Positions 9,857 to 17,093 of a stretch of 64,000 bases of DNA are shown here, piece after piece. The stretch is from Spirirestis rafaelensis WJT71-NPBG6. GTDB taxonomy: Bacteria; Cyanobacteriota; Cyanobacteriia; Cyanobacteriales; Nostocaceae. Made by a program: the position numbers and the translations under genes. Each line of letters opens with the position of its first letter. Positions within the stretch are counted from its first letter, which is position 1. The notes under the pieces were generated by a model. It was not told the DNA's origin, ran no database searches, and worked only from the letters and a program-made list of their open reading frames with translations. Where the stretch lies: positions 1-64,000 of the forward strand of contig JAHHID010000009.1 of assembly GCA_019359015.1 (NCBI GenBank), in the 5' to 3' direction.

Positions 9857-12412
9857 ATGTTCCAATCAAGCAGTAGAAACTTTACAGATCATCATCAGAA
9901 ACTGTTGCAATTTAACAGCTTGGCAGAATCTTTTTCCAGAGACTTGCTTGGTGAAGTAGACCTTGTGAGAATTACCGCCAGAGCGAAACAAAAGCAAAAA
10001 GATAAGCAAACACTGGGTCAATTTTTGACTCCTGCGAGCGTAGCAGAATTAATGGCTGGGATGTTTGAAAAACTTGATTATCCTCAAATATCTCTGCTTG
10101 ATGCTGGAGCCGGATCTGGTTCATTACTTGCAGCATTCGTGGCTAACCTTTGTCATCAGCAACAACACCCAATAAATTTAGACATTGTTGCCTATGAAAT
10201 AGATCCGTTTCTAATTAAATATTTACGTCAAACATTAAAATTATGTGCAAGCGAATGTCAGATAGCTGGTATTTCCTTTAATTATGAAATCCGTGAAAGA
10301 GACTTTATTGAGGATGCCGTTACAATTGTTAGCGACAATTCAATATTTACTCACGCTATTCTCAATCCTCCGTATTTGAAAATCAAAGCTAATTCTAAGG
10401 TTCGTACATTGTTACGTTCTTTAGGATTAGAAACCAGCAATCTCTATACGGGTTTTATCGCTGCTACAGCACATCTCCTCAAGTCAGGAGGGGAACTTGT
10501 AGCCATCTCACCGCGTAGTTTCTGTAATGGACTGTATTTTAGAGACTTCCGTAAGATGTTTTTAGAGATGATGGCTTTACGCCAGATACATCTTTTTGAA
10601 TCCCGACAAAAAGCATTTAGCGATGATGAAGTTTTGCAGGAAACAGTTATCATTCATGCTATAAAACAAAAGCAAAAGTTTGATAATGTACTCATCAGCA
10701 CAAGTTCAAGTGCTGATGACGATTTTGTTATGTCAAACTCCTTATCTTATACAGAAATAGTTCATCCTAACGACTCAGAACAATTTATTCATATTATTCC
10801 AGATACTTTTAGTCAGCAGGTCGTTCAACAAATGGGAAATTTAACCTGCACTTTGAAAGACCTAGGATTGACAGTATCAACTGGACGTGTGGTAGATTTT
10901 CGGGCAAAAGAATATTTGCGTTTAATACCGGAAGAAAACACAGTTCCTTTAATTTATCCTGTGAATTTATCTCAAGGATATGTTGAGTATCCAAAGACAA
11001 CTAGAAAACATCAAGCCTTGGTGCATGTAGAACAAACGGCTTCGCTTTTGATACCGAATGAACACTATGTTTTGAACAAACGCTTCACCTCAAAAGAAGA
11101 AAAAAAAAGAGTAGTTGCTGTTGTATACGATGCTGAAAGAATTAACTCTTCCTGGGTTGGTTTTGAAAATCACCTAAATTACTTTCATAAAAATGGACGG
11201 GGACTCGATCTTACTCTGGCACGCGGTCTTGCTGCTTATCTTAACTCCAGCCTCGTAGATACTTTTTTTCGACTGTTTAATGGGCACACTCAAGTTAATG
11301 CAACTGATTTACGAAATTTAAAATATCCGACAATGCAGCAGCTTATGTCGGTGGGTGTACGAATTCAGGATAAGTTGCCCTCACAAAAAGAAATTGATGA
11401 ATTTGTGTCAGAATTTTTGAGTATGACGGATCAATTTGAAAATAATTTATTCACAATTAAATCTCGTATTGATGAAGCACTGCAAATACTAATTGAACTT
11501 GGACTTCCACGGGCACAACTTAATGAACGTTCAGCATTAACCCTTCTTGCCCTACTAGATTTGAAGCCAACCGAACCTTGGAAATCTGCGGTATCTCCTT
11601 TAATGGGAATCACGCCAATGATGCAATTTATGGCACAGCATTATGGCAAAACATATAAACCCAATACGCGGGAAACTGTTCGCCGCCAAACAGTCCATCA
11701 ATTCTTAGACGCTGCTTTGATAGTTGCAAATCCAGATAATCTAGGTCGTCCGATTAACAGCCCGAAAACCGTATATCAGATTGAAGAAAGTGTACTTGAA
11801 TTATTACGTACTTATAAAACCCCCGAATGGGAAAAAAGTATTCGTACCTACCTTGCATCAGTTGAAACTCTGAAAAAACGATATGCTCAAGAGCGCGAAT
11901 TGTCACGTATTCCTGTAATGATTGAAGGAGAACTTAAGACTCTATCGCCAGGTGGTCAAAACGTTTTAATTGAGAAGATTATTAATGAGTTTGCACCACG
12001 TTTTACACCAGGAGGAAAACTAGTTTATGTAGGCGATACAGATGAAAAATTCGCGCATTTCAACCAAGCGGCATTATTAGATTTAGGTGTGACAGTCGAT
12101 TCTCACGGTAAAATGCCTGATGTAATTATCCATCATCTAAAGAATAACTGGTTAGTTTTAATTGAAGCTGTAACTTCTCACGGTCCAATTAACCCCAAGC
12201 GAAAGAAAGAACTTGAAACTATCTTTGCTAATACAAAAATTCCGCTTGTAATGGTGACGACGTTTCTCAGCCGTAAGGCTATTGTGGAGTATTTGGCGGA
12301 AATTGCTTGGGAAACAGATGTCTGGGTTGCTGAAGATGCTACTCATCTGATTCATTTCAATGGAGAATATTTACTACAGGCTTACAAAGTAGATAAATCT
12401 GACACAGAATAA
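9857..12412 (+). CDS. Fused BsuBI/PstI-type restriction-modification enzyme
   Basis: 851 residues. The first ~540 form an N6-adenine methyltransferase: SAM motif LLDAGAGSGSLLAAF (~81-95), catalytic NPPY (~170) and the N-terminal QFLTPASVAELMA signature. The rest matches the BsuBI/PstI endonuclease: a helical N-part (~560-680) and a PD-(D/E)xK-like core with VYVGDTDEK, PDVIIHH (~754) and IEAVTSHGPINPKRKKELE (~769). In typical BsuBI/PstI systems, methylase and nuclease are separate genes; here they are one chain. By family, the target may be CTGCAG or a related site (inference). No separate specificity or control gene is adjacent. Confidence 0.88.
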   Translation: MFQSSSRNFTDHHQKLLQFNSLAESFSRDLLGEVDLVRITARAKQKQKDKQTLGQFLTPASVAELMAGMFEKLDYPQISLLDAGAGSGSLLAAFVANLCHQQQHPINLDIVAYEIDPFLIKYLRQTLKLCASECQIAGISFNYEIRERDFIEDAVTIVSDNSIFTHAILNPPYLKIKANSKVRTLLRSLGLETSNLYTGFIAATAHLLKSGGELVAISPRSFCNGLYFRDFRKMFLEMMALRQIHLFESRQKAFSDDEVLQETVIIHAIKQKQKFDNVLISTSSSADDDFVMSNSLSYTEIVHPNDSEQFIHIIPDTFSQQVVQQMGNLTCTLKDLGLTVSTGRVVDFRAKEYLRLIPEENTVPLIYPVNLSQGYVEYPKTTRKHQALVHVEQTASLLIPNEHYVLNKRFTSKEEKKRVVAVVYDAERINSSWVGFENHLNYFHKNGRGLDLTLARGLAAYLNSSLVDTFFRLFNGHTQVNATDLRNLKYPTMQQLMSVGVRIQDKLPSQKEIDEFVSEFLSMTDQFENNLFTIKSRIDEALQILIELGLPRAQLNERSALTLLALLDLKPTEPWKSAVSPLMGITPMMQFMAQHYGKTYKPNTRETVRRQTVHQFLDAALIVANPDNLGRPINSPKTVYQIEESVLELLRTYKTPEWEKSIRTYLASVETLKKRYAQERELSRIPVMIEGELKTLSPGGQNVLIEKIINEFAPRFTPGGKLVYVGDTDEKFAHFNQAALLDLGVTVDSHGKMPDVIIHHLKNNWLVLIEAVTSHGPINPKRKKELETIFANTKIPLVMVTTFLSRKAIVEYLAEIAWETDVWVAEDATHLIHFNGEYLLQAYKVDKSDTE

Positions 12413-13845: not shown

Positions 13846-14230
13846 AATGCGTGATCTACCGAAATGAGAAAGCATTCAAGCATTTTGAGAAAGCAATATG
13901 CCTTTTTGCTTGCCCAAAACACCAAAATGAATGCGTGATTTACCGAAATGAGAAAGCATTCAAGCATTTTGAGAAAGCAATATGCCTTTTTGCTTGCCCA
14001 AAACACCAAAATGAATGCGTGATCTACTGAAATGAGAAAGCATTCAAGCATTTTGAGAAAGCAATATGCCTTTTTGCTTACCCAAAACATCAAAATGAAT
14101 GCGTGATTTACCGAAATGAGAAAGCATTCAAGCATTTTGAGAAAGCAATCTACCATTTTGCTTGCCCAAAACACCAAAATGAATTAGTGAATTATTCAAA
14201 TGAGAAAGCATTCAAGCATTTTGAGATGAT
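13846..14230. repeat. 84-bp tandem repeat array, about 4.5 copies
   Basis: The GTGAT/GTGAA landmark recurs at 13851, 13935, 14019, 14103 and 14187, exactly 84 bp apart. Each unit contains ATGAGAAAGCATTCAAGC, a second TGAGAAAGCA, and TTTTGCTTGCCCAAAACACC. The first three copies are nearly identical and the last is truncated at TTTTGAGATG. There are no unique spacers, so this is a minisatellite, not a CRISPR array. 84 is a multiple of three, so the minus strand stays open as a 28-residue repeat, but nothing supports translation. It lies just downstream of the TIR-TPR gene. Confidence 0.9.
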
Positions 14231-14265: not shown

Positions 14266-16338
14266 CTACGCACCAAATAAACGTCCCCAAAAACCCTTGT
14301 TCTTATTCCTATAAATCTCTAAGTTGTCACGAATCACAGTGTTACTAGGATCGAGGCGAACAGCTATTTCCAGTTCTGCGATCGCTTCATCTAGTTTGCC
14401 TTGATCGTACAGCGCATTCCCCAGCCTATAGTGAGCAAATGCATAGTTTGGGTCGATTTGCAAGGCTTGGCGATAGGACGCGATCGCTTCATCTAGTTTG
14501 CCTTGATTGTACAGCGCTAACCCCAGGTCATTGTGAGCAGTTGCTAAGTTTGGGTCGATTTGCAACGCTTGGCGATAGGAGGCGATCGCTTGATCTAGTT
14601 TGCCTTGATTGGAGAGCGCATTCCCCAGGTTATTGTGAGCAAGCGCATAGTTTGGGTCGATTTGCAACGCTTTGCGGAAAGAGGCGATCGCTTGATCTAG
14701 TTTGCCTTGATTGGAGAGCGCTAACCCCAGGTTATTGTGAGCAGGTGCTAAGTTTGGGTCGATTTGCAACGCTTGGCGATAGGAGGCGATCGCTTGATCT
14801 AGTTTGCCTTGATTGGAGAGCGCAATCCCCAGGTTATTGTGAACATCTGCTAAGTTTGGGTCGATTTGCAACGCTTGGCGATAGGAGGCGATCGCTTGAT
14901 CTAGTTTGCCTTGATTGAAGAGCGCAATCCCCAGGTTATTGTGAACATCTGCTAAGTTTGGGTCGATTTGCAACGCTTGGCGATAGGAGGCGATCGCTTG
15001 ATCTAGTTTCCCTTGCTTGGACAGCGCTAACCCCAGGTTATTGTGAACATCTGCTAAGTTTGGGTCGATTTGCAAGGCTTGGCGATAGGAGGCGATCGCT
15101 TCATCTAGTTTGCCTTGATTGAAGAGCGCAATCCCCAGGTTATTGTGAACATCTGCTAAGTTTGGGTCGATTTGCAAGGCTTGGCGATAGGAGGCGATCG
15201 CTTCATCTAGTTTGCCTTGATCAGACAGCGCAATCCCCAGGCAATTGTGAGCATACACAGAGTTGGGGTCAAGATTGAGGGCTGCTTTGTATTTGAGGGC
15301 TGCTTCCTCGAACTTTTTATTTTCGCGTAAACGATCTGCTTCGTTGATCAGGCTAGTGACTTGATATTCGCGCTTTTCTAGCTCTTGTGCAGTGACTTGC
15401 TCTTCAATCAGGGTTACATCCTCATCCCTGAGTTTTAGCATGTGCTGATAATTCTTTAATCCTTCACGGCTGTGGTCACTGAGTGGATACTCCCATTGCT
15501 GGACTTTGATTAATTCTTGCTCATATCGTCGTAACTTTTGCTGATAGTCCTCCAGCGACACCTCTACCTTTTGAACACTGACAACCTTTAGATATAAATC
15601 TCCCCGTTTATTGGTTATCGGGTTAAGTTTACCTTTACCTCGAATCCGCAGCTTCTTACCAGGACTAAAACTAGATGGAACAGTCACAGTAATTGAGCCA
15701 TCCTCCAGCGCAATCTTCTTTTCTGTGCCGTAGGTCAATTCACCAATGCTAAGAGGGAGTTCTAGCGTCAGGTCAGTTTCAACTTGATTGCCAGACTGAG
15801 GTGGAGCTTTATCTGCTGAGGGTTTCAGAGCAAGGGGCTTTTGGTTTGCAGAATTTTGTTTGGGTGGTGAGTAATTCGAGCTAGCAACTAATCGCTTAAC
15901 TTCCTCCCGAATGCCTTTGACAACTTCTAAGAATGCTTCATCTCGGTCAGTCCAGCTTTTTATTGGTTTACGATTACTAGGCAAGGGAGATAGTTTATCA
16001 ATGGGAGGAGCGTCCCAATCCGCATAACGCAGTAACACTGGGATAACACTAGCCTTCCCTGCTGCATTCTGCTCTAATGCTCGTGTAATTTCAACTGTCC
16101 AATGATAATCTGAAGCAATGAAATCTGGACTCACCAACAACAGGATAAGCCCAGCTTGGTTGAGAGACTTATTAATTTCACCTTTAAATTCCTGCCCAGC
16201 GACGATTTGGCGATCGCTCCAACTGATAATAGTTTTTTCCCGCAGCAAAGTCGCTAGATGCTTCTCTAACTCTTCGCGTAAGTCGTTATCCTTTTGGTGG
16301 TAAGAAATAAAAACTTCAACAGATTTCATAGGGGGCAT
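14266..16338 (-). CDS. TIR - DnaJ C-terminal-like - TPR protein
   Basis: 690 residues. Residues 5-150 are a TIR domain (VEVFISYHQKDNDL, LILLLVSPDFIASDYHW) with a Glu at 83 at the place of the NADase catalytic Glu. A Pro/Lys linker follows. Residues ~190-265 match the DnaJ C-terminal substrate-binding domain (SIGELTYGTEKKIAL, GKKLRIRGKGKL, RGDLYLKVVSV), but no J-domain is present. A coiled stretch (~265-345) leads to about ten 34-residue TPRs, most reading IASYRQALQIDPN. The C-terminus (RNKNKGFWGRLFGA) is basic and amphipathic. The repeats are near-identical in DNA, so copy number may vary. It starts 17 bp after the other TIR gene and is probably its operon partner. Possible role: protein-complex sensing with NAD-linked signalling (inference). 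Confidence 0.88.
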   Translation of the reverse strand: MPPMKSVEVFISYHQKDNDLREELEKHLATLLREKTIISWSDRQIVAGQEFKGEINKSLNQAGLILLLVSPDFIASDYHWTVEITRALEQNAAGKASVIPVLLRYADWDAPPIDKLSPLPSNRKPIKSWTDRDEAFLEVVKGIREEVKRLVASSNYSPPKQNSANQKPLALKPSADKAPPQSGNQVETDLTLELPLSIGELTYGTEKKIALEDGSITVTVPSSFSPGKKLRIRGKGKLNPITNKRGDLYLKVVSVQKVEVSLEDYQQKLRRYEQELIKVQQWEYPLSDHSREGLKNYQHMLKLRDEDVTLIEEQVTAQELEKREYQVTSLINEADRLRENKKFEEAALKYKAALNLDPNSVYAHNCLGIALSDQGKLDEAIASYRQALQIDPNLADVHNNLGIALFNQGKLDEAIASYRQALQIDPNLADVHNNLGLALSKQGKLDQAIASYRQALQIDPNLADVHNNLGIALFNQGKLDQAIASYRQALQIDPNLADVHNNLGIALSNQGKLDQAIASYRQALQIDPNLAPAHNNLGLALSNQGKLDQAIASFRKALQIDPNYALAHNNLGNALSNQGKLDQAIASYRQALQIDPNLATAHNDLGLALYNQGKLDEAIASYRQALQIDPNYAFAHYRLGNALYDQGKLDEAIAELEIAVRLDPSNTVIRDNLEIYRNKNKGFWGRLFGA

Positions 16339-16355
16339 TATTTATATATAGAAGA

Positions 16356-17093
16356 CTACACAAGCTTTTGCTCGATTTCCTCAAGCTGCCGATCTAACCG
16401 ATTTAGTTCTGTTTCGCTTTCCTGAATTTGTTTCTCTAGCTTAAACTTTGTAGTTGTATCTGTTTCAATCGAGTATGCTAGGCGCAACCGACTTAATTTT
16501 TCGCTCTCTCGGTCATACTGTTGTTGTAGTGAATTGTGTTCTTCCTCTAATCTACGACGTTGGCGATCACCCCCACTCGTTGCAGGAGGGTTGAAAGTCG
16601 CAGGTGTAGTACTTCCAGAAGCAGTTGAGGAGGAGGATTTTGATTTAGCAATATCTTCAACTACCCTGCGAATTCCTTGAGCAACATTTAAAAAAGCCTC
16701 ATCTTGGTCTTGCCAGGTTGTGACAGCTTTAGCATTTTTAGGAAGTGCTTGCAGTTTACCAAAAGGTGCATCACTCCAGTCTGACGGCTTTAAAATAATG
16801 GGAATTACGCGAGCTTCTTTGGCTTCATGTCGCTCCATTGCTCGCTGCATCTCAATGTCGTAGCAGTAATCTGAAGCCAGAAAGTTAGCGCTCACCAGCA
16901 ACAAAATGATATCCGCAGCGTTAAGATTGTCATCGATCGCATTTGCCCATTCCGCACCAGCACTAATTTCGCGATCGTGCCAAGCTTCAATAAATCCCCG
17001 ACGTTTCATCAAGCTCAGATGAGTTGCCAATTCGTCTCGCAAGGCTTCATCTTTATGGGAGTAGGAAAAAAATACTTTAACTGCATTAGACAT
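16356..17093 (-). CDS. TIR domain - coiled coil protein
   Basis: 245 residues. Residues 5-150 are a TIR domain (VKVFFSYSHKDEALRDELA, IILLLVSANFLASDYCYDIE) with Glu81 at the likely catalytic site. A Ser/Thr/Pro linker (~155-178) leads to a C-terminal coiled coil (~180-245) rich in Gln, Glu, Arg and Leu, which suggests oligomerisation. It is the first gene of a two-gene minus-strand unit with the TIR-DnaJC-TPR protein. Bacterial TIR proteins often serve in anti-phage NAD depletion or signal production, but many in cyanobacteria are of unknown role. Neighbours include a restriction-modification gene. Confidence 0.87.
   Translation of the reverse strand: MSNAVKVFFSYSHKDEALRDELATHLSLMKRRGFIEAWHDREISAGAEWANAIDDNLNAADIILLLVSANFLASDYCYDIEMQRAMERHEAKEARVIPIILKPSDWSDAPFGKLQALPKNAKAVTTWQDQDEAFLNVAQGIRRVVEDIAKSKSSSSTASGSTTPATFNPPATSGGDRQRRRLEEEHNSLQQQYDRESEKLSRLRLAYSIETDTTTKFKLEKQIQESETELNRLDRQLEEIEQKLV

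Follow-up and report, generated by a model that had tools for sequence, protein, structure and literature searches.

Two adjacent genes, A and B, were distinguished on the minus strand of the window, i.e., the whole stretch of 64,000 nucleotides of Spirirestis rafaelensis WJT71-NPBG6 DNA analyzed in this work (the genome is 7.07 Mb in size, and its relatives are filamentous Nostoc-type cyanobacteria). Gene B is localized upstream of gene A on the same strand, with a gap of 17 bp between them. The features of both genes are as follows:

14266..16338, minus strand: gene A, an ORF with exactly these borders, encoding a 690-aa TIR-DnaJ_C-LK-TPR protein
15889..16338, minus strand: TIR domain of A, aa 1-150 (Pfam TIR_2, E 5.9e-15)
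15583..15783, minus strand: single, accessory DnaJ C-terminal lobe of A, aa 186-252 (PF01556)
15322..15555, minus strand: LK of A, a three-helix segment, aa 262-339 (distinguished by its recurrence in caspase, kinase, and TIR proteins)
14314..15321, minus strand: TPR array of A, about 10 repeats followed by the tail GFWGRLFG (Pfam TPR, 10 stretches)
16356..17093, minus strand: gene B, the first gene of the pair, encoding a 245-aa TIR-EAD9 protein (ORF, Pfam)
16644..17081, minus strand: TIR domain of B, aa 5-150 (Pfam TIR_2, 3e-18)
16374..16565, minus strand: EAD9-type helical hairpin (coiled coil) of B, aa 177-240 (Pfam EAD9 in homologues, AF2)

In most homologues of A, the start codon corresponds to aa 4 (MKS) of the protein presented here. 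The TIR domains of both proteins contain a glutamate which we take, by comparison with familiar TIR motifs, to be the catalytic residue of TIR NADases, i.e., aa 83 of A (in SDYHWTVE), kept in 29 of the 30 A homologues, and aa 81 of B (in SDYCYDIE), kept in all 29 B homologues. The nearest TIR of solved structure, by a weak sequence match, is that of the filament-forming Cat1. The AF2 models of A (aa 1-420) and B were middling (mean pLDDT 71 and 61, respectively), with the TIR parts modelled poorly; the former has strands at residues 190-254 and three helices for LK, and the latter has helices at residues 174-209 and 213-244, with pLDDT mostly >90. Structure searches with the 420-residue model of A were dominated by TPR and gave little information on TIR, DnaJ_C, and LK.

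The TPRs of A are encoded by near-identical 102-bp DNA units (positions 14378-15254; 8.6 x 102 bp, 91%), and the number of repeats differs widely among homologues. The conserved tail KKKGFWGRLFGG, which closes many A proteins (positions 14266-14320 of the window, and homologues), is a possible membrane or docking motif. An 84-bp tandem repeat (positions 13846-14226, 4.5 copies, 93% alike) is localized just downstream of A. No clear defence island was recognized in the surroundings of the pair, apart from a single restriction-modification gene (9857-12412, plus strand), in which an N6-methylase is fused with a BsuBI/PstI-type endonuclease.

The DnaJ lobe and the LK segment of A

The initial annotation described A as a TIR domain joined to a DnaJ substrate-binding region and about ten TPRs, without a J-domain, and this architecture was confirmed, with one DnaJ lobe present and not two. 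The DnaJ_C-like region was recognized by a profile search, as PF01556 matched this segment, when scanned alone, with 42.9 bits (cut-off 26.6; E 6.4e-11). The match covers 66 of the 152 profile positions and fits only one of the two DnaJ C-terminal lobes, i.e., A does not contain the complete two-lobed C-terminal substrate-binding domain of DnaJ/Hsp40. At the sequence level, this segment is also similar to DnaJ proteins of solved structure (E 1e-9), and the application of Foldseek to the model of A indicated the DnaJ structure 9zm4 (E 1.5e-6) among TPR matches. In alignments with the class-B (CbpA-type) DnaJs encoded in the same genome, the lobe of A was closest to lobe I (score 153 vs 94 for lobe II, where the best of 200 shuffles scored 53). 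A chance match as the source of DnaJ_C in A was thus ruled out by the profile, the structures, the lobe alignment, and the occurrence of the lobe in seven carrier genomes. Although alignable with lobe I of class-B DnaJs, A differs from these proteins by the lack of the second lobe and of the J-domain. Its N-terminus is a TIR domain and no HPD motif was found in A, which shows that the J-domain is missing; stimulation of Hsp70 is therefore not expected.

LK was found in 27 of 59 relatives. Amongst 29 LK proteins, there were those with caspase (19), FGE-sulfatase (9), protein kinase (5), GUN4 (5), and WD40 (3) domains. This recurrence indicates that LK is a recurrent segment placed between an effector and a C-terminal module, and that various modules are combined with it, the DnaJ lobe among them. 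LK accompanied by the same lobe and GUN4, in the LK/lobe order reversed relative to A, was found in proteins of three Scytonema genomes. The full order caspase-LK-DnaJ_C-GUN4 is present in Scytonema NIES-4073; the other two frames gave no caspase match, and GUN4 of RU_4_4, the third Scytonema, was read from the translation. The C-terminal GUN4 module is thought to bind tetrapyrroles. Cyanobacterial orthocaspases, in which a linker is combined with GUN4, FGE-sulfatase, or WD40 (PMC8283722, PMC7517822), share with A the LK segment and, within the three Scytonema genomes, also the DnaJ lobe (48-49% identity for the two compared), but their effector is a caspase and not a TIR, LK precedes DnaJ_C, and GUN4 replaces the TPRs. 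DnaJ_C is absent from the list of accessory domains of orthocaspases given in PMC8283722.

Distribution of the pair and of the DnaJ_C+LK cassette in Nostocaceae

The survey of 217 Nostocaceae genomes yielded 30 close matches to the TIR of A (E up to 1e-50). For 29 of them, the coordinates placed B directly upstream on the same strand, so the neighboring TIR gene, in which the initial annotation saw a partner of A, is indeed conserved with it. The only exception was a 63%-identical TIR localized near another pair in genome G456. The chromosomal sites of the pair vary, i.e., it follows nadE or a ROK kinase gene, lies close to agmatinase, or adjoins a TrkA-type channel gene, and this 29/30 pairing at several different sites rules out a local accident. 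A third gene common to all loci of the pair was looked for, and none was found besides A and B. Three genes encoding full-length B proteins without a close A were identified (in G339, G473, and G460), and in G460 a remnant of A (the linker end and TPR) follows B.

In six Nostoc genomes, nadE is localized directly upstream of these genes on the same strand, at a distance of about 190-395 bp; four of these loci (L149, L154, L156, and L158) contain the pair, and two (L145 and L146) contain B only. A NUDIX/NrtR-like gene (of the ADP-ribose-responsive repressor family) lies beside nadE in five of the six loci, and nadD and pncB were found further upstream at four of them. The location of an NADase-type pair beside NAD synthesis genes may be functional or may come from one inherited insertion. 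Two other arrangements of TIR genes were also observed. Genome G456 encodes a 1073-aa TIR-TPR protein (L148:5418-8639, minus strand), in which several TPR blocks are separated by copies of the C-terminal segment of A, as though entire A tails had undergone tandem duplication. Moreover, more distant tandem TIR genes (L044-L056) encode a CHAT-TIR protein followed by a TIR protein with a hydrophobic C-terminal part; in L044, the locus on which the domain scan was run, the second TIR is devoid of the glutamate (SDYNWDVLAKQ).

The DnaJ lobe is present in seven of the 30 A homologues, and the other 23 pass directly from TIR to TPR, which rules out DnaJ_C as a fixed part of the system. Besides the window's genome, the same architecture of A was found in six Nostocaceae genomes, and the scan of the genome collection named five carriers, i.e., Nostoc sp. 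T09, Nostoc sp. S13, Nostoc foliaceum FACHB-393, Nostoc sp. KVJ20, and Nostoc sp. CMAA1605. In all five, B is localized upstream, being truncated to 155 aa in CMAA1605. Because in the lobe-less A proteins the TIR (...NYSPP) goes directly into the TPR (...YQVTSLINEADRL), DnaJ_C+LK can be recognized as a clean insertion. Two contig ends of G081 with LK-TPR, whose upstream part is missing, are probably the DnaJ_C version broken by assembly, and they were excluded from the counts. In the search of plasmids, no record spanned TIR and DnaJ_C, and among the matches listed there was TIR only, with <60% identity.

Among the carriers, the mean dN/dS values were 0.16 for TIR, 0.52 for the linker preceding DnaJ_C, 0.14 for DnaJ_C, and 0.18 for LK; the value for DnaJ_C indicates that the lobe is under purifying selection. 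By dN, the lobe is the slowest-changing part of A (0.027 vs 0.051 for TIR). In the trees, the TIR of the window's A and its entire B group with the lobe-less clade (100/99 in the B tree), and the synonymous distances between the window and other carriers are 0.4-1.0 for TIR and 0.1-0.3 for DnaJ_C. Taken together, these sequence comparisons suggest an exchange of this stretch, i.e., that the DnaJ_C+LK cassette in the window was moved by recombination. Furthermore, in the trees of 29 pairs, the presence of the lobe needs four (A) or five (B) changes, with two or three gains or losses forced by well-supported branches, and pairs with and without the lobe were found at the same chromosomal site (L149 vs L154, and L150 vs L155).

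EAD9 of B and its putative partners within the genome

Pfam EAD9 (Effector-associated domain 9) was matched in five of six B homologues (best E 7.8e-11), the sixth being truncated and without the EAD9 region, and EAD9 of the window's own B falls under the Pfam cut-off (E 0.0012; 19 vs 25 bits). Two further EAD9 proteins are encoded in the same genome, i.e., caspase-LK-EAD9 (at C66) and EAD9-iSTAND (at C11), EAD9 of the latter being just below the cut-off (23.3 vs 25 bits). EAD9 of B shares 48 of 69 residues with that of the caspase protein and 27 of 60 residues with that of iSTAND, both far above shuffles. The gene encoding EAD9-iSTAND adjoins a MoxR-type AAA+ gene, a vWA-like ORF (read from the translation motif LLLLIDDDGSM), and a gene of an FGE-sulfatase protein. 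Judging from the sequence, these genes are arranged as in the iSTAND ternary conflict systems that Kaur et al. 2020 (PMC7159879) described. In that work, EADs were proposed as homotypic couplers of effectors to cores, EAD9 was classed among the EADs mainly recruiting signalling components, and DnaJ is named once only, for GAP1-N2 GTPase systems in which this domain is joined to FNIII repeats.

Two features of an EAD-coupled effector were thus found, i.e., the fusion of an EAD with an effector domain (TIR-EAD9 in B homologues) and the same EAD on a core component encoded in the same genome (EAD9-iSTAND). Of the 31 B-bearing genomes, 22 contained the EAD9-iSTAND core, vs 35 of 186 genomes without B (Fisher p 1.7e-8, not corrected for kinship). 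The remaining nine B-bearing genomes lack the core, and one of them is Nostoc sp. T09, which has the complete pair with DnaJ_C; B may therefore not need this core or may have a different partner. In having a TIR-EAD9 protein, an EAD9-iSTAND core, and a caspase-LK-EAD9 protein within one genome, the set resembles the EAD-coupled iSTAND/MoxR-vWA systems. However, B is not placed beside the core but is paired with A, which does not carry EAD9 and has TIR, TPR, and sometimes the DnaJ lobe. The best reading of these sequences takes B as an EAD9-coupled TIR effector within a predicted EAD conflict system and A as its putative TIR partner. The initial annotation suggested that the TIR-coiled-coil protein might act as an effector or nucleator, and this view is supported by the presence of EAD9, for which homotypic adaptor function is predicted.

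Proposed mechanism and alternative explanations

We give roughly even chances to the view that the pair is a two-gene TIR effector arm of EAD-coupled conflict systems in multicellular cyanobacteria, with the DnaJ lobe as an optional regulator. Conflict systems of this type are predicted to act in immunity or cell suicide. Through its EAD9, B would dock to EAD9-iSTAND of the MoxR/vWA ternary system, whose genes lie at another place in the genome; the caspase bearing the same EAD9 may be a further docking partner. A would supply the partner TIR and, as an input, the fast-changing TPR array, in some lineages together with the DnaJ lobe and LK. Upon sensing, contacts between their TIR domains would join A and B in an oligomer, which would cleave NAD+ and halt a cell that is infected or damaged. 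The DnaJ lobe would be an optional, exchangeable module, whose ligand is most likely a general one, either hydrophobic peptide in an exposed state or the chaperone machinery of the host, and it would tune the threshold rather than define the trigger.

Another explanation is close to that of the initial annotation, which presented A as a sensor detecting aggregated or phage protein. In this view, unfolded, aggregated, or nascent phage protein would be bound by the DnaJ lobe itself, and this binding would activate the two TIR proteins, B being only an effector or nucleator. Lobe I of class-B DnaJ, to which the conserved lobe of A is nearest, is the main client-binding lobe. A precedent by analogy may be seen in CmdTAC, a toxin-antitoxin-chaperone system in which the toxin is released once a SecB-like chaperone detects freshly synthesized capsid protein of the phage (PMC11618068). 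Common to CmdTAC and the putative A/B system is a chaperone-derived part that may detect phage protein, but the chaperone of CmdTAC is a separate SecB-like protein, its toxin is an ADP-ribosyltransferase, and no homology to the pair is claimed. As 23 of the 30 homologous pairs do not have the lobe, it cannot be the essential trigger. Moreover, A has one lobe instead of the usual two, the lobe occurs also in the caspase-GUN4 proteins, and its high conservation seems unlike that of a fast-evolving pathogen receptor. The claim of direct sensing through DnaJ_C is thus weakened and we consider it unlikely, an unfolded-protein trigger for A being possible as far as the sequences tell. Similarly doubtful is a broader form, in which the client-binding lobe of J-proteins would be an exchangeable input of TIR and caspase effectors that senses hydrophobic or nascent (phage) protein and gates NAD+ cleavage, EAD9 of B coupling the second TIR protein to iSTAND/MoxR/vWA.

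Quite unlikely, in our estimation, is a role of the DnaJ_C+LK insert as a passive spacer or oligomerization element acquired by domain shuffling, with sensing left to the TPRs alone. It would agree with the repeated gain or loss of the insert, with the otherwise alike homologues without it, and with the recurrence of LK as a linker in many architectures, but the low dN of the lobe, the slowest part of A, would not be needed for a mere spacer.

The lobe might also dock A to the host Hsp70 machinery (the DnaK tail or a DnaJ/DnaK complex), A being inactive until stress or infection titrates the chaperones. In eukaryotic class-B J-proteins, lobe I binds the EEVD tail of Hsp70, TPR arrays often bind chaperone tails, and the lobe of A changes little, as expected of a binder of a host protein. 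However, the genome encodes three DnaK proteins and not one of them ends in EEVD, which makes docking to an Hsp70 EEVD tail unlikely and led to the rejection of this route for A; the explanation as a whole is distinctly improbable.

A Thoeris-like arrangement, in which B makes a signal read by ThsA, a SIR2-SLOG or macro effector, encoded elsewhere, is highly improbable: the PADLOC model of ThsB-type TIR (PDLC00420) matches both B (231 bits) and A (165 bits), but only over the TIR domain, no ThsA-type neighbor or third gene common to all loci was recognized, and the two TIR proteins here carry EAD9 and TPR. The STALD search of the genome gave no match, with the controls likewise silent.

Returning to the preferred reading, i.e., an EAD9-coupled TIR arm with an optional DnaJ lobe, its novelty concerns A. 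The initial annotation pointed to no described system with this order of domains. No TIR-DnaJ_C protein was found in the full-text literature, which, with few subscription papers covered, is weak evidence of absence, but the surrounding grammar of TIR, EAD, helical linker, TPR, caspase, and GUN4 was already known. B fits a known predicted class, and the domain order of A together with its mobile DnaJ lobe is, within the scope of our searches, an undescribed variant of it.

The undescribed TIR-DnaJ_C-TPR order is tied to testable partners, i.e., the adjacent TIR-EAD9 protein, EAD9-iSTAND with MoxR/vWA, and the EAD9 caspase. Since pairs that have the DnaJ lobe and pairs that lack it both exist in nature, they can serve as controls for one another. 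Should the coupling prove real, TIR and caspase outputs in the predicted immunity of cyanobacteria would be linked through a single adaptor, and immune receptors would be seen to gain and lose chaperone parts.
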